From: Methylophaga marina | Lineage (GTDB): Bacteria > Pseudomonadota > Gammaproteobacteria > Nitrosococcales > Methylophagaceae | Direction of reading: 5' to 3' | Length of the DNA stretch: 64,000 nucleotides | Assembly (NCBI RefSeq): GCF_030296755.1 | Contig: NZ_AP027741.1 | Coordinates: forward strand, 558,001-622,000 | Shown: positions 8,035 to 14,807 of the stretch, piece by piece | How the letters are laid out: every line of letters begins with the position of its first letter | Position numbering within the stretch: the first letter of the stretch is position 1 | Notes under the pieces: generated by a model | What the model saw: only the letters and a program-made list of their open reading frames with translations | What the model was told of the DNA's origin: nothing | Databases searched by the model: none | Translations under genes and position numbers: made by a program

Positions 8035-8970
8035 ATGCACCAGCGCACAATTGAAGAACTTCAGCAAGATCATGACTTTGTCACGATAAATCCACATGCT
8101 GAAAAACGCACACGCTATGTTCTTGCTCTCACGATCATCACCATGCTCGTGGAAATTATTGCAGGCACACTTTTTGGCTCTATGGCCTTACTAGCTGATG
8201 GCTGGCATATGGCCACACATGCCGTAGCCTTTCTCATTACCTTGTTTGCTTATTCTTACGCATCGAAAAACAAAACGAATGCTGCATTTGCTTTTGGTAC
8301 AGGAAAAGTCAGTGTATTGGGCGGCTTTGCCAGCGCTATTGCTCTAGGCGTCGTCGCTTTGATGATGTTAATAGAATCAGTAGAACGATTAGTCAATCCG
8401 CATCAAATCGAATTCAGTGCAGCAATCCTTGTCGCCATCATAGGTCTTATCGTTAACCTCATCAGCGCATTAATATTAAAAGATAACCACGCGCACAGTC
8501 ATAGCCACGCAAGTCATCACCATCACCACCATGATCACAATTTAAAAGCCGCTTATATGCACGTTTTAGCAGATGCGCTAACGTCCATTTTGGCCATCAT
8601 CGCGCTTATTGGTGCAATGCTTCTTAATTGGATGTGGCTGGATGCCTTAATGGGCATTGTCGGTGCTGTCATCATCAGTGTCTGGGCTGTTGGTTTAATC
8701 AAAGAGACCAGTCCGATATTACTGGATGGCAGCATTGAGCAGGGCTACAGTCAGGCTATTCAGGATCGTATAGAGAATGATGCGGACAATCATATTGTCG
8801 ATTTCCACATCTGGCATGTGAGTGCTGAGCATTTTGCTGCCATTATTTCTATTGCGACATCTGAGCCCAAACCCACTCAGCATTACAAATCACTACTGAA
8901 TGAATTTGATCGTTTGTCACACATTACGATTGAAGTGAATCAATATCATCAAAAAAGTGATGATCACTAA
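8035..8970 (+). CDS. dmeF: CDF-family divalent metal efflux transporter, DmeF-like
   Basis: 311-aa inner-membrane cation diffusion facilitator with about six membrane helices, exporting a divalent metal against protons. The N-terminal block AEIAGTLFGSMALLADGWHM-like region (here EIIAGTLFGSMALLADGWHM) carries the paired H/D metal site of the family and closely resembles DmeF, the Co/Ni exporter subgroup. A histidine-rich loop at about residues 152-169 (several HxH and a run of six His) lies between helices IV and V, and the C-terminal cytoplasmic domain is present. The Co/Ni assignment is by resemblance only; Zn is possible. There is no good ribosome-binding site before the ATG. No RcnR/DmeR repressor is adjacent. 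Confidence 0.8.
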   Translation: MHQRTIEELQQDHDFVTINPHAEKRTRYVLALTIITMLVEIIAGTLFGSMALLADGWHMATHAVAFLITLFAYSYASKNKTNAAFAFGTGKVSVLGGFASAIALGVVALMMLIESVERLVNPHQIEFSAAILVAIIGLIVNLISALILKDNHAHSHSHASHHHHHHDHNLKAAYMHVLADALTSILAIIALIGAMLLNWMWLDALMGIVGAVIISVWAVGLIKETSPILLDGSIEQGYSQAIQDRIENDADNHIVDFHIWHVSAEHFAAIISIATSEPKPTQHYKSLLNEFDRLSHITIEVNQYHQKSDDH

Positions 8971-9084: not shown

Positions 9085-10863
9085 ATGGATATGCTGAACA
9101 TCGACATCAGCGACTTTCTTCAAAAACATAGATTACCTGATAGTTATCAGACGCTTGCAGAACAATGGTATTTACCTGTTCTTGAAGAAATATCGATGCA
9201 CCATAAAAGTGCAAAAAGGACGATCACTGTAGGTATTAATGGTGCACAAGGTTCAGGAAAAAGTACGCTGGCCCAACTTGCTGTTTATATTCTTAGAGAA
9301 CACTACTCACTCAATGTAGTGTCTTTATCACTAGATGATTTTTATTTCACTCGTCAAGAAAGAATACAGCTAGGCCAGGGTATTCATCCTCTACTAACCA
9401 CTCGTGGTGTACCAGGCACACATGATATTGCTCTTGCTAGAAAAACAATCAGTCAGCTCATAAACCAACAATTTCCAGTCAACATTCCTCGTTTTAATAA
9501 AGCAGAAGACGACCGGGCCCCTGCTGAGTCAGAAGAAATCATTACTCAAGCTGTTGATGTCGTCATCTTTGAAGGTTGGTGCCTGGGAGCCGAAGCACAG
9601 GATGATCGTCTACTTAAAGCGCCCATTAATGATTTGGAAGAGTTCGAAGATGACTCACAAGTCTGGCGACGTTATGTGAATGAGCAATTAGCCAGGTTTT
9701 ACCCAAAACTGTTTGAACTGATTGATATCTGGATCATGCTCAAAGCGCCTTCTTTTGACTGTGTCTATCAGTGGCGGCTTGAGCAAGAAAACAAATTGAA
9801 ATCAAGCTTGTCTGAGCAGCAGACAAGCACACAAATTATGGATGAGAAAGCGGTCGGACGCTTTATCAAATATTATCAACGTATTACCGAAAATACACTC
9901 AACACGTTGCCAAACAAAGTGAACTATTTATTCGAACTTGATGAAAATCGCCAAATCACCCAACTCACTCAACCGCTACCAACCAAACTAAGCAGCAATG
10001 CGCCCCATCAATGGTTGGTGTTTACCGATATGGATGGCACTCTGCTTGATCATCATAATTATCACTTTGATGAAGCCATACCGACACTCGCAGCACTTGA
10101 GCAGAATCAGATTCCCGTTATACCTGTTACCAGTAAAACAGCGGCTGAAGTGGAGCTCATAAGAGATAGTCTTGGCAACCATCACCCTTTTATTGTGGAG
10201 AATGGTGCGGCTGTCTATATTCCAGAAGGTTACTTTGACCAGCAACCAGAAGATACTGAAAAACGAGGGAAATATTGGGTTAAAAGTTTTGTTCAGCCTC
10301 GACAACATTGGCAGTCATTGATTGACCAGGTTCGTCCTGCTTATCAGCATGAATTTAAAACATTCGCTGATGCAGGTATTGATGGCATTATTGCGATGAC
10401 AGGTCTGAATGTCCATGCAGCTGCTTGTGCTGCAAGACGCGAGTTTGGCGAACCTGTGTCATGGCATGGCAACGGCAATCTCAAACACCAGTTTATAACT
10501 GAGCTGACAGCACTTGGTGCCAATATTCTTGAAGGCGGACGGTTTATCCATGTTTCGGGCCAATGTGATAAAGGTCAGGCCCTCGCCTGGTTAACCGCGG
10601 TTTACCAACAAACCCAACCACAGCAAATTATTCAGACACTGGGAATAGGTGACAGTCAAAATGATAAAGCGATGCTAGAGCAAGCCGATTACGCTTTGCT
10701 TATTCGCTCACCTGTTCATGGTCTACCAGACATAGATAGAACAGATAACTTAACTGTGTCCACTTTTTTCGGCCCTAAAGGTTGGGCTGAAGGTGTCACT
10801 CAAATCATCGATGCAAAGCAGCATTCCGATTCATTTAACTTACCCCGAGGCAATCATGGCTGA
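9085..10863 (+). CDS. Fusion of a D-glycerate 3-kinase-like domain and a glucosyl/mannosyl-3-phosphoglycerate phosphatase
   Basis: 592 aa in two domains. Residues ~1-300 form a P-loop kinase: Walker A GINGAQGSGKST at 50-61, then LSLDDFYFTRQER and the HPLLTTRGVPGTHD signature of the plant/fungal GLYK-type D-glycerate 3-kinase family. From ~310 it is a HAD-IIB phosphatase with motif I DMDGT at 315-319, NGAAVYIPEGY, and the acidic motif GDSQND near 522-527, as in mannosyl-3-phosphoglycerate phosphatases (MpgP/YedP). By family, one half makes 3-phosphoglycerate from glycerate and ATP, and the other dephosphorylates glucosyl-3-phosphoglycerate to glucosylglycerate. The 3' end overlaps gpgS by 8 nt. 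Order and overlap tie it to glucosylglycerate metabolism; the joining of these two activities is unusual. The 114-bp upstream gap has an inverted repeat GCAGTAT (9003-9009) / ATACTGC (9039-9045) of unknown use. Confidence 0.85.
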   Translation: MDMLNIDISDFLQKHRLPDSYQTLAEQWYLPVLEEISMHHKSAKRTITVGINGAQGSGKSTLAQLAVYILREHYSLNVVSLSLDDFYFTRQERIQLGQGIHPLLTTRGVPGTHDIALARKTISQLINQQFPVNIPRFNKAEDDRAPAESEEIITQAVDVVIFEGWCLGAEAQDDRLLKAPINDLEEFEDDSQVWRRYVNEQLARFYPKLFELIDIWIMLKAPSFDCVYQWRLEQENKLKSSLSEQQTSTQIMDEKAVGRFIKYYQRITENTLNTLPNKVNYLFELDENRQITQLTQPLPTKLSSNAPHQWLVFTDMDGTLLDHHNYHFDEAIPTLAALEQNQIPVIPVTSKTAAEVELIRDSLGNHHPFIVENGAAVYIPEGYFDQQPEDTEKRGKYWVKSFVQPRQHWQSLIDQVRPAYQHEFKTFADAGIDGIIAMTGLNVHAAACAARREFGEPVSWHGNGNLKHQFITELTALGANILEGGRFIHVSGQCDKGQALAWLTAVYQQTQPQQIIQTLGIGDSQNDKAMLEQADYALLIRSPVHGLPDIDRTDNLTVSTFFGPKGWAEGVTQIIDAKQHSDSFNLPRGNHG

Positions 10864-12079
10864 TTTTCACCAGAATGGGATTATTACTACTCTTCATAAC
10901 TTAACAGATCGCCACTTAGCTGATCTTGAAAGCGATCTTGTTCAATTTAGCAAACAAAGGCCTATGGGATTACTGCTCCCTTCCCTTTTTTCAGAGCTCG
11001 AAGGTGAGGCGCTCCCTAATATTATTCAGCAGCTTAAAACGGTTCCTTACTTATCTGAAATTGTTATTGGTCTGGATCGCGCGGATGAAGACCAATATCG
11101 TCATGCCATTAACTTCTTTTCGGCCTTGCCACAGCACCATCGTATTTTATGGAATGATGGGCCGAGACTCACCGCGATTGACGAAGAACTGCAATCGCTG
11201 GGGCTCGCGCCAAAAGAAAAAGGTAAAGGTCGTAATGTCTGGTATTGCACGGGGTATATCATTGCCTCTGGAAAAGCGGAATCAATTGCCCTGCATGATT
11301 GCGACATAGTGACTTACACCAGTGATTTACTCGCACGCTTAATCTACCCTGTCGCTAACCCGATGTTTAATTATGAGTTTTGTAAAGGTTATTACGCTCG
11401 CGTGGCCAGTGGAAAGCTAAATGGCCGTGTGAATCGTTTACTCGTCACGCCGCTTATCCGCGCACTGAAGATGGTCGTCGGTAACCAGCCTTATCTGGAA
11501 TATATGGATAGCTTCCGATACCCGCTGGCCGGTGAGTTTTCATTCAGACGCGATGTATTATCTGATATTCGTATCCCGAGTGACTGGGGTCTGGAAATAG
11601 GTGTGTTATCAGAAATGCATCGTAACTATGCCAATAATCGACTCTGTCAGGTGGATGTAGCCCAAGTTTATGATCATAAGCATCAAGAATTATCACCGGA
11701 CGATCAGCAGGCCGGTTTATCCAAAATGTCGATCGACATTGCCAAATCGCTATTTAGAAAACTAGCCACGAAAGGTACGGTATTCACGCCTGAATCATTC
11801 CGAACGCTAAAAGCGACTTATTACCGTATCGCACTCGACTTTGTGGAAACCTACCACAATGATGCAGTGATGAACGGCCTGCATTTCGACATTCATCAGG
11901 AAGAAGAGTCTGTTGAAATGTTTGCTAAAAACATCATGGATGCAGGTCAAATGTTCCTGGAGAATCCGATGGAAGTCCCCTTCACGCCAAGCTGGAGCCG
12001 AGTACAGAGTGCACTGCCAGATATTTTTGAACGAATTTATGATGCTGTTGAAGCTGACTATCAGGATTTTTCTGCATAA
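10856..12079 (+). CDS. gpgS: Glucosyl-3-phosphoglycerate synthase
   Basis: 407-aa retaining glycosyltransferase (GT81 family) that joins glucose from an NDP-glucose to 3-phosphoglycerate. The ATG at 10856 is chosen over an in-frame ATG at 10793 because GAGG sits six bases upstream and the protein then begins MADFHQNG near the family start. Key motifs are LLPSLFSELEGEALPNI, KGKGRNVWYCTGY, the metal-binding DCD at 148-150 and the acceptor region PLAGEFSFRRDV followed by DWGLEIGVLSE. It overlaps the upstream phosphatase fusion and is 12 nt before the phosphorylase, so the three are one operon. GpgS is preferred over a mannosyl enzyme because of sequence resemblance and because galU follows. Confidence 0.92.
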   Translation: MADFHQNGIITTLHNLTDRHLADLESDLVQFSKQRPMGLLLPSLFSELEGEALPNIIQQLKTVPYLSEIVIGLDRADEDQYRHAINFFSALPQHHRILWNDGPRLTAIDEELQSLGLAPKEKGKGRNVWYCTGYIIASGKAESIALHDCDIVTYTSDLLARLIYPVANPMFNYEFCKGYYARVASGKLNGRVNRLLVTPLIRALKMVVGNQPYLEYMDSFRYPLAGEFSFRRDVLSDIRIPSDWGLEIGVLSEMHRNYANNRLCQVDVAQVYDHKHQELSPDDQQAGLSKMSIDIAKSLFRKLATKGTVFTPESFRTLKATYYRIALDFVETYHNDAVMNGLHFDIHQEEESVEMFAKNIMDAGQMFLENPMEVPFTPSWSRVQSALPDIFERIYDAVEADYQDFSA

Positions 12080-12091
12080 GGGATACCAAAA

Positions 12092-13846
12092 ATGACACCC
12101 AATGATGAGCAACTTCAACGATTGAAAGAGACAGTTCTCCATCATCTCAACGCTATTTATTCTGAGACCTCTACTGATTTTTCGCTAGGCACCTTATGCG
12201 ATGACATTATCCGCATCATGCGGTTAGATCAGGATTTCAAAGAAAGCATTGCGCATAAAAATAACTGGGATCAAACGGATATTGTTCTTATTACCTACGG
12301 TAATAGTGTAAAAAAAGAAGGTGAAGCACCTTTAAAAACGCTGTATCGTTTTCTTAATAATGAAATCAGTGGTTATATAAATGGCGTGCATATCTTGCCA
12401 TTTTTCCCATATTGCTCAGATGATGGCTTTGCCGTCATGGATTATTATGAAGTTAATAAAGCATTGGGAGATTGGGAGGACATTGAAGCCATTGCCAGTG
12501 ATTATCGTCTGATGGCTGATCTTGTTATCAATCATGGTTCCAGCAGCGGCACTTGGTTTAAGAACTTTATTAAAGGTGATGGTCCAGGTCATGACTATTT
12601 TTTCACCACGTCACCAAGCACGCCCATCAGTCAGGTAGTCAGACCGAGAACCAGCCCCTTGCTCCGTGAAACAGAAACTCATGATGGCACTCAATATGTC
12701 TGGTGCACTTTCAGTCATACTCAGGTGGATTTTGATTTCCGTAACCCTGAAGTGTTAAAAGAATTTATTAATATCGTTCGCTTTTATCTGGATAAAGGAG
12801 TGCATATTTTCCGGCTGGATGCGGTGGCTTTCTTGTGGAAAAAAATCGGCACAAACTGCCTCAATCTTCCAGAAACACACGAAGTAGTCAGGTTGATGCG
12901 AAGTTTGATTCAACACGTGGATCCAAATGCCATCATTATCACTGAAACCAATATCCCAAACAGAGAAAACCTGAGTTATTTTGGTAATGCTAATGAAGCT
13001 CACTGTATCTACAATTTTTCGCTGCCGCCTCTTTTGGTCAATACGCTAGTCACAGGAGACTGTTTTTATTTAAAACAGTGGTTGATGAGCATGCCGCCAG
13101 CACAACATGGGACAGCATACTTTAACTTTATTGCTTCGCATGACGGCATAGGCCTGAGGCCGGCTGAAGGCTTATTAAGTGAAGCTGAGATTGCTTCTTT
13201 AATCAGTACTATGCAGCAATTTGGTGGGCGTATTTCCTGGCGGGAAGGCGAAAATGGTGTGAAAAAACCTTATGAAATCAATATCTCACTGTTTGATGCA
13301 CTTCAAGGCACAACATCGGGTAAAGATGAGTGGAATATTGACCGTTTTATCTGTGCTCACGCCATCATGCTGGCTTTAGAAGGTATTCCTGGCATTTATA
13401 TTCATAGCTTGCTCGCTACCAGTAATGATTTAGAAAAGCTGGAACACACGGAACAAAACCGTTCGATTAATCGTCATGAATGGGATGAAGCTTCCTTGAT
13501 GAGCGAATTATCAACGCCATCATCTCAACATGCACAAGTTTCAGAATTACTTAAGAAGCTGATACATCTAAGAAAACAACAGCGGGCTTTTCATCCGAAT
13601 GCCACTCAGTTTACACTGCACCTTGGTGAAAAACTGTTTGGGTTTTGGCGACAAAGTATGGACAGAAGACAAAGTATCTTCTGCATTTACAATATAAGCG
13701 ATACCGAACAACCACTTCGTATTGCCAACCTCAATCTGGTTGTTACAGACCGATGGTGGGACCTGATAAGTGGTGTTATTCTAGATGGTTCATCTGACAT
13801 GATTACAGTTGCGCCATACCAAGTACTATGGATTACAAATGGCTAA
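12092..13846 (+). CDS. GH13 glycoside phosphorylase, probably glucosylglycerate phosphorylase
   Basis: 584-aa cytoplasmic alpha-amylase-fold enzyme of the sucrose phosphorylase group (GH13_18). The nucleophile is Asp243 in [15 protein letters not shown], the acid/base Glu285 in IITETNIPN, and the third acid lies in [15 protein letters not shown]. The N-terminal block [21 protein letters not shown] is family-typical. GH13_18 members split glucosides with phosphate to glucose-1-phosphate. Sucrose, sucrose-6-phosphate and glucosylglycerate phosphorylases all belong here. The operon (gpgS, phosphatase, glycerate kinase, galU) argues for glucosylglycerate, giving glucose-1-phosphate and glycerate. 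Sucrose phosphorylase remains the alternative. Confidence 0.85.
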
Positions 13847-13903
13847 GGTATTGTCATCAGACTTTCATACCATTTAGCTAAGCTATATAAAAAATAAGGA
13901 TTA

Positions 13904-14761
13904 ATGAATGCAATCAGTAAAAAAATTCGTAAATGTCTTTTCCCTGTAGCTGGTTATGGCACACGATTCCTGCCAGCCACCAAAGCCATGCCTAAAGAGA
14001 TGTTACCTGTCGTTAACAAGCCTCTTATTCAATATGGTGTCGAAGAAGCCATTGAGGCTGGCGTCACTGAAGTAGGTTTCATCACTGGTCGAGGTAAACG
14101 TGCAATTGCTGATCATTTCGACACCAGTTACGAATTAGAACACCAAATCCGTGGTACGAGTAAAGAGAAACACCTGGAAGATATTCGTGAAGTGATGGAT
14201 ACCTGTAACTTCATCTTTATGAGACAACGTGAAATGCTCGGTTTGGGTCATGCGATTCTAACTGGTCAACCTATTATCGGTGACGAACCATTTGCCGTTA
14301 TCCTGGCTGACGACTTGTGCGCTCGTACAGATGAAGATGTAAGCAAACGTGCATTAGGCCAATTGGTTGAAGTCTACGAAAAATATAACTGTAGTGTTAT
14401 TGCTATTGAAGAAGTACCCGGCGATAACATCAGCAGCTACGGTGTCATCTCTGGCCGTGAAATCGAAGATGGTCTATTTGAAGTCGATGACATGGTAGAA
14501 AAACCAAAACCTGAAGATGCGCCAAGTCAGCTAGGTATTATTGGTCGTTACGTATTAACGCCTGATATCTTTGAATACATTGAAAAAACAGCGCCTGGTG
14601 CCAATGGTGAAGTACAAATCACTGATGCTATCCGTACTCTGGCAAAAGAAAAACGCGTTTTGGCACTCAAATTTAAAGGTCACCGTTTTGACTGCGGTAG
14701 TATTGATGGCTTTGTTGAAGCGACCAACTACTACTACCAGCGTGATCATGCTAAAAAGTAA
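13904..14761 (+). CDS. galU: UTP-glucose-1-phosphate uridylyltransferase
   Basis: 285-aa enzyme making UDP-glucose from glucose-1-phosphate and UTP. The nucleotide-binding loop is LFPVAGYGTRFLPATKAMPKEM with the MLPVVNKPLIQY block after it; VILADDL holds the metal-binding Asp and VEKPKPEDAPS is also conserved. AAGGA precedes the ATG. It lies 57 nt behind the phosphorylase gene with no terminator between, so it is probably co-transcribed, recycling glucose-1-phosphate into the donor pool. A strong hairpin terminator follows. Confidence 0.96.
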   Translation: MNAISKKIRKCLFPVAGYGTRFLPATKAMPKEMLPVVNKPLIQYGVEEAIEAGVTEVGFITGRGKRAIADHFDTSYELEHQIRGTSKEKHLEDIREVMDTCNFIFMRQREMLGLGHAILTGQPIIGDEPFAVILADDLCARTDEDVSKRALGQLVEVYEKYNCSVIAIEEVPGDNISSYGVISGREIEDGLFEVDDMVEKPKPEDAPSQLGIIGRYVLTPDIFEYIEKTAPGANGEVQITDAIRTLAKEKRVLALKFKGHRFDCGSIDGFVEATNYYYQRDHAKK

Positions 14762-14778: not shown

Positions 14779-14807
14779 AAAAAGCCGGCTTCCCCGCCGG
14801 CTTTTTT
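14779..14807. terminator. Bidirectional intrinsic terminator after galU
   Basis: Arms 14779-14789 and 14796-14806 form an 11-bp stem (AAAAAGCCGGC) around a 6-nt loop, with T and A tracts on either side. It ends the glucosylglycerate operon rightward; the polymerase gene's stop codon (14806-14808) overlaps its edge. Confidence 0.9.

Follow-up and report, generated by a model that had tools for sequence, protein, structure and literature searches.

Does a single operon of a methylotroph encode both the synthesis and the recycling of glucosylglycerate, and what does it mean that two of the enzymes involved are joined in one protein? These questions are raised by a stretch of 64,000 nucleotides of the Methylophaga marina genome (contig NZ_AP027741.1, positions 558,001 to 622,000 of the forward strand), here called the window. 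Within positions 9085-14761 of the window, four uninterrupted, close-set open reading frames (ORFs) follow each other on the + strand. They encode a fusion of a glycerate kinase-like domain with a phosphatase, a protein resembling the glucosyl-3-phosphoglycerate synthase GpgS, a putative glucosylglycerate phosphorylase (GGaP), and the uridylyltransferase GalU. An earlier interpretation made without database searches (the sequence-only reading) had proposed these four same-strand genes as an operon, and the ORFs and profile matches bear out the families and the span. The gene families and motifs also support the cycle that it proposed, and it is quite probable that the locus is a glucosylglycerate synthesis-and-recycling operon. 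The cycle itself is a known one, running with a recurrent bifunctional enzyme that is apparently undescribed.

The Kinase-Phosphatase Fusion

The fusion gene (9085-10863, + strand) encodes 592 residues, with the kinase at about residues 1-295 and a HAD-IIB phosphatase of the MpgP/GpgP type at about residues 309-580. In sequence searches, the kinase half matches solved structures of the D-glycerate 3-kinase GLYK (6ckg at 1.6e-21, 7xpc at 4.6e-19), which we take to be the class III glycerate kinase, and the HAD half matches structures of the mannosyl-3-phosphoglycerate phosphatase (MpgP)/YedP type (1xvi at 3.9e-33, 3ztw at 1.4e-24). The HAD half scores above the cut-off of the MPGP family model TIGR01486 (209 bits, cut-off 164.75) and just short of that of NF001218 (355.9 bits, cut-off 362). 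Among the 25 NCBIfam families listed, no equivalog-level match of the phosphatase reaches its cut-off. Pfam at its cut-offs detects the HAD domain alone, and the NCBIfam kinase matches of the fusion are all under cut-off, so annotation may overlook the kinase half.

Conservation follows both halves. In an alignment of 56 fused and split kinase-phosphatase rows, the kinase residues G53, G56, G58, K59, D84, D85, R107, H113, K139, E163, W165, R231, and E235 are invariant in all 56, and G50 (kept in 48), D114 (49), D143 (42), and R144 (35) vary. The same rows all keep D315, D317, S350, K496, D523, N526, and D527 of the HAD half; D495 and S524 vary. A structure model of the fusion, built with 9 sequences, is of mediocre quality (predicted local distance difference test, pLDDT, 72.7; predicted template modeling score, pTM, 0.51), with a poorly predicted stretch at residues 261-301, and is too weak for reading contacts between the domains. 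A Foldseek search with this model retrieves MpgP 3ztw (5.2e-19) and GLYK 7xpc (2.0e-13).

The plant and fungal GLYK chains (7xpc, 6ckg) are thus alike to the kinase half in sequence and predicted fold but match that half only, whereas the Methylophaga protein adds a phosphatase. Similarly, Thermus MpgP (3ztw) and Escherichia coli YedP (1xvi) resemble the phosphatase half in sequence and predicted fold and match that half only, and the sugar specificity of the Methylophaga HAD half is predicted, not settled by sequence. The bifunctional mannosyl-3-phosphoglycerate synthase/phosphatase (NF011072) likewise has a C-terminal phosphatase of this kind in a pathway of the same type, but there it is joined to the synthase rather than to a glycerate kinase (the Methylophaga protein scores 150 bits, cut-off 762).

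The protein is 100% identical in Methylophaga sp. SAT92. A full-length fusion without internal stop occurs in 23 of 57 Methylophagaceae genomes, the own and same-species genomes included, and the 15 Methylophaga rows of the kinase-phosphatase tree form one supported fused clade (97/96); the fused frame is therefore not a local artefact. The proposal that a GLYK-type kinase is joined to an MpgP-type phosphatase is upheld by the uninterrupted ORF, the matches to both families, and the frame kept in relatives. No description of a glycerate kinase-phosphatase fusion was found in the open-access literature (titles and abstract openings), in line with the earlier remark that no such fusion was known to be described.

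Predicted Synthase, Phosphorylase, and GalU

The gpgS gene is called mechanically from a GTG at 10793, but we judge it more likely to begin with the in-frame ATG at 10853 (10853-12079, + strand), and the gene then overlaps the 3' end of the fusion gene. The NCBIfam families matched by its product are two GpgS models alone; on NF040724 (GpgS_Meth, cut-off 700) it scores 372.5 bits, with positions 2-401 of 402 covered. It has no Pfam match, and the match to the solved GpgS 7p5l is weak (1.9e-4).

The third gene (12092-13846, + strand) encodes a GH13_18-type protein of 584 residues with a PF00128 match. E. coli YcjM is a characterized GGaP according to the consulted parts of two papers (PMC7178133, PMC8950772), the first of which names two marks of these enzymes, (T/S)ETN at strand beta-5 and, in loop A, Glu instead of Gln. 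The operon protein is 38% identical to YcjM in an alignment of eight proteins, namely these two and six relatives. All eight, YcjM included, carry the TETN motif found at residues 284-287 of the operon protein, and Y394 and E395 are likewise invariant in all eight; the stretch with this YE pair corresponds, in our reading of the alignment, to loop A. The presence of TETN and the YE pair favors the earlier assignment of this enzyme as a glucosylglycerate rather than a sucrose type. It is extremely unlikely that the protein is instead a sucrose phosphorylase, with the kinase serving another path. Its closest solved structure bears that name (7qqj, 1.4e-56), as does its best NCBIfam model (sucrose_gtfA), but the score on that model, 217.5 bits, lies below the cut-off of 334.4 and beside that of the known GGaP YcjM (221.1 bits), both signature motifs are present, and the genome has a separate, amylosucrase-like GH13 protein. 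The latter lies outside the window (G000:C1:326243-327820, about 660 residues, 35% identity in the best stretch); it is so labeled from the length of its frame and from amylosucrase matches in the solved-structure search of the operon GH13 protein, rather than from a scan of the amylosucrase-like protein itself.

The last gene, galU (13904-14761, + strand, 285 residues), encodes a UTP--glucose-1-phosphate uridylyltransferase above the cut-off of TIGR01099 (393.5 bits, cut-off 326.8). As it is the sole GalU-family match over cut-off in the genome, it probably serves the whole cell rather than this cycle alone.

The same genes bear on the identity of the product. Mannosylglycerate in place of glucosylglycerate would fit the HAD half, which matches families named for mannosyl-3-phosphoglycerate phosphatase as well as an MpgP structure, but it is at odds with a synthase that matches GpgS models, a phosphorylase with glucosylglycerate signatures, and a GalU as the last gene of the operon, and is very unlikely.

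The Proposed Cycle and Known Systems

In the favored reading, glucosylglycerate is made and recycled from one operon. GpgS would transfer glucose from UDP- or ADP-glucose to 3-phosphoglycerate, and the HAD half of the fusion would strip the phosphate to release glucosylglycerate. Surplus glucosylglycerate would then react with phosphate through GGaP to glucose-1-phosphate and D-glycerate; GalU would convert the former to UDP-glucose, and the GLYK half the latter to 3-phosphoglycerate. In the fusion, the enzyme that completes synthesis and the kinase of salvage would be present in equal amounts as one protein. The sequences themselves show the gene content, the families, the motifs, and a tree on which fused and split forms are mixed; we infer the substrates, the direction in the cell, the part played in osmotic balance, and any benefit of the fusion other than equal expression.

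Such a cycle has been described before. According to the consulted part of the review PMC7178133, genes for glycerate kinase, GpgS, or GpgP often accompany those for GGaP (GH13_18, EC 2.4.1.352; Meiothermus silvanus, Spirochaeta thermophila), the same gene company as in the Methylophaga operon, but a fused kinase-phosphatase is not mentioned there; the attached GalU is a further difference. The consulted part of PMC11631117 describes a glucosylglycerate operon of the cyanobacterium Prochlorococcus NATL2A with the same synthesis through glucosyl-3-phosphoglycerate and the same recycling to glucose-1-phosphate and 3-phosphoglycerate, but with a putative transporter gene and no mention of a fusion. 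Gene cluster and recycling are therefore already in print.

Glucosylglycerate is probably not the sole osmolyte of this bacterium, since ectoine is named for Methylophaga in the part of PMC1224877 consulted and the genome encodes an ectoine synthase. Glucosylglycerate, for which the sequence-only reading had proposed fast adjustment in a salt-loving methylotroph, may thus be a second osmolyte.

The Likely Substrate of the Kinase Half

Glycerate is the likely substrate of the kinase, as judged from the genome and from same-order neighborhoods. A search of the own genome gives no match to PF05161 or to PF02595, which we take to be the two other glycerate kinase families; the same searches are positive in 4 and 5 of 14 genomes, respectively. 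Moreover, in six of six sampled genomes of the same order (G035-G040; L094, L129-L133), a homologous kinase adjoins a gene for a glycolate-oxidase-type flavin adenine dinucleotide (FAD) oxidase, two of these oxidases having been tested with profiles (L094, L131) and four judged by eye from the sequence starts. On the GlcD model (cut-off 567.9), the two tested score about 551 bits each; a longer model (cut-off 897) gives 846 and 860 bits. A class-V aminotransferase gene is also next to the kinase in four of the six (L094 tested, three by eye). Surroundings of this kind would be expected for a glycerate kinase of the photorespiratory type. Together with the GLYK structure matches, this context supports the earlier reading of the kinase as acting on glycerate. 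The product, 3-phosphoglycerate, is inferred from the Arabidopsis enzyme: in the consulted part of PMC4378991, Arabidopsis GLYK yields 3-phosphoglycerate and the two kinases of E. coli yield 2-phosphoglycerate.

Distribution and Recurrence of the Fusion

Among the 57 Methylophagaceae genomes, those without the full-length fusion comprise two with a one-stop fusion (G002, G030), one with adjacent genes (G078), one with a HAD fragment (G077), seven with the kinase alone, and 23 with no match. A close GGaP (E below 1e-200) is encoded in 26 of the 27 genomes that have the HAD half in whole or part, the exception (G001) being 55% complete, in none of the seven kinase-only genomes, and in none of the 23 no-match genomes save for a 137-residue piece in G029. 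Phosphatase and phosphorylase thus travel together, and the kinase can also occur on its own. At L028:6004-7764 and L010 (Methylophaga thiooxydans DMS010), the kinase half of the fusion gene carries an in-frame stop, which may be real decay or a draft sequencing error.

A class sample of 369 genomes contains 80 that match somewhere in the fusion query, the weakest through a short P-loop stretch, and uninterrupted full-length fusions are found in the own genome, G013, and G200. The distant gammaproteobacterial family to which G200 belongs has matches in 121 of 147 genomes (E no higher than 1e-20), and the uninterrupted fusion occurs in at least eight (G200, G847, G835, G915, G938, G924, G896, G849). 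Among the matches listed for that family, seven more show one or two stops between halves that share a frame, and the others are single halves or separate genes. The fusion is therefore not special to this methylotroph. Two apparently larger kinase fusions, in G051 (855-residue frame) and G225 (467-residue frame), look like over-long frames and were dropped; in the former, Pfam gives a single AAA match under cut-off, in the kinase part.

The kinase-phosphatase tree of 56 rows (27 fused, 29 split) requires at least eight changes between the fused and split states (8-9 over bootstraps), and well supported branches force four of these. The placement of L173, a fused row on a long branch, is uncertain. 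A smaller tree of 34 rows gives four changes, two of them forced. The split rows comprise 9 in frame and 20 out of frame, a share of about one third that gives no sign of splits being mostly broken fusions, with the reservation that locus picking favors in-frame pairs. Near repeats (L008, L010, L014, L019, L046) and two loci in which no HAD was found (L179, L180) were dropped before the 56-row tree; loci close to the window (L005, L007, L036) and shorter duplicates of included loci were never entered, nor were the remaining homologue-search loci apart from L033 and L035.

A second pairing of phosphatase and kinase occurs in another family of the class. In G337, a 720-residue ORF (L077:6555-8714, - strand) begins with an MpgP-family phosphatase (TIGR01486 235.8 bits, cut-off 164.75) and ends with domains of a different glycerate kinase family, DUF4147 (PF13660, 283.7 bits) and MOFRL (PF05161, 135.8 bits), both above cut-off. 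The best NCBIfam kinase match of this ORF is a "glycerate 2-kinase" (220.2 bits, cut-off 550). Its neighbors encode a GpgS homologue (52%), another glycosyltransferase resembling GpgS/MGS, and a mechanosensitive channel. This HAD-MOFRL fusion is found in one of eight genomes of its family, and no further example is among the matches listed for 398 genomes of the phylum, with at most two candidates scored per genome. Although it comes from one genome, this arrangement, with the other kinase family and in the opposite order, would independently support both the pairing of kinase with phosphatase and glycerate as the substrate.

Observations Weighing Against the Cycle and the Fusion Reading

Several observations count against this interpretation. 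The GpgS match is far under its family cut-off, and the phosphatase models are named for mannosyl-3-phosphoglycerate, leaving the choice of sugar unsettled by sequence. One member of the genus (G007), 99% complete, has neither the fusion nor a close GGaP, and the seven kinase-only Methylophagaceae genomes keep the kinase without the pathway. The glycolate-oxidase neighborhood was observed in the same order alone; at 14 further kinase loci (L134-L136, L138-L148), no glycolate-oxidase-type gene was seen by eye among three ORFs on either side, L137 having no kinase ORF in its map; the kinase at L140 has a glyoxylate-type aminotransferase nearby (NF045640 584.7 bits, cut-off 650). Furthermore, the kinase of two loci stands directly before galU (L093:7879-9634 in G025 and L134:5717-7646 in G041), which suggests another role there. 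At L093, the kinase gene overlaps galU in a 16-kb stretch that has no phosphatase, GpgS, or GGaP, and G025 has no GGaP match; the neighboring ORFs shown for L134 likewise include none of the three. With regard to recurrence, the fused rows are related, and the changes on the tree may be gains or splits of an older fusion.

Origin and Role of the Fusion

The fusion probably formed from a kinase gene and the phosphatase gene that followed it, which merged into one frame; in relatives the two overlap or are closely spaced. A neutral merger of this kind, in which the protein works as two separate enzymes and the joining has no regulatory meaning, is compatible with the cycle and has a little less than an even chance of being the explanation. 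At 10 of the 14 split loci with a measured gap the genes overlap (ORF starts being mechanical), by exactly 4 bases in six of the ten (L079-L082, L087, L088); the predicted linker of the fusion is of low confidence, and on the tree split rows are interspersed with fused ones. Neutrality is harder to reconcile with the other junctions of the operon. The kinase-phosphatase junction is fused at 33 of 63 loci, whereas the equally tight junctions between phosphatase and GpgS (0 of 63) and between GpgS and the phosphorylase (0 of 39 loci with both genes in reach on one strand) never are, and in G337 an unrelated kinase is joined to the same phosphatase. Of the 63 loci, 56 are tree rows and seven come from the homologue search; four of these seven (L025, L029, L030, L032) repeat genomes that the rows already represent. 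Since the rows are related and partly chosen by match score, which favors same-frame pairs, the junction control is a contrast rather than a probability.

The selectivity of the fusion for this pair, seen also with the unrelated kinase of G337, fits a two-way switch in which salt or metabolites would affect the two halves in opposite ways, thereby determining which way the cycle runs. In the cycle as proposed, the kinase would serve salvage only and the phosphatase synthesis only. Such a switch is likewise compatible with the cycle; no regulatory domain is seen, the structure model is too weak to reveal domain contacts, and we regard the switch as unlikely. In one locus of a relative (L087:9214-10989, G244), a GGaP homologue (44%) lies on the strand opposite to the kinase-phosphatase-GpgS genes, so in some relatives breakdown may be controlled separately.

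Probable Boundaries of the Operon

An intrinsic-terminator-like hairpin (14779-14806, + strand; 11-pair stem with a T-rich stretch) lies 3' of galU and is the likely end of the operon, in a region where the number of terminator-like sites is not above chance (4 found, 5.3 expected). The promoter scan found 10 promoter-like sites, with 14.1 expected, and none upstream of the fusion gene. Directly upstream on the same strand lies a gene for a DmeF-type Co/Ni efflux transporter (8035-8970; NF033827 381 bits, cut-off 250), for which no link to the operon was seen.

Implications

It is a speculative thought that bacteria have repeatedly fused a glycerate kinase with glucosyl-3-phosphoglycerate phosphatase, in one or more cases using an unrelated kinase and the reverse domain order, and that the resulting bifunctional enzyme would hold together the ends of salvage and synthesis and switch the direction of osmolyte turnover, as a small-solute counterpart of PFK-2/FBPase-2. 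The fusion of a predicted salvage kinase with a predicted synthesis phosphatase, more than once, would be genomic evidence that breakdown and synthesis of glucosylglycerate run as one cycle. As a single protein carries both predicted activities, this idea can be assayed on that protein.

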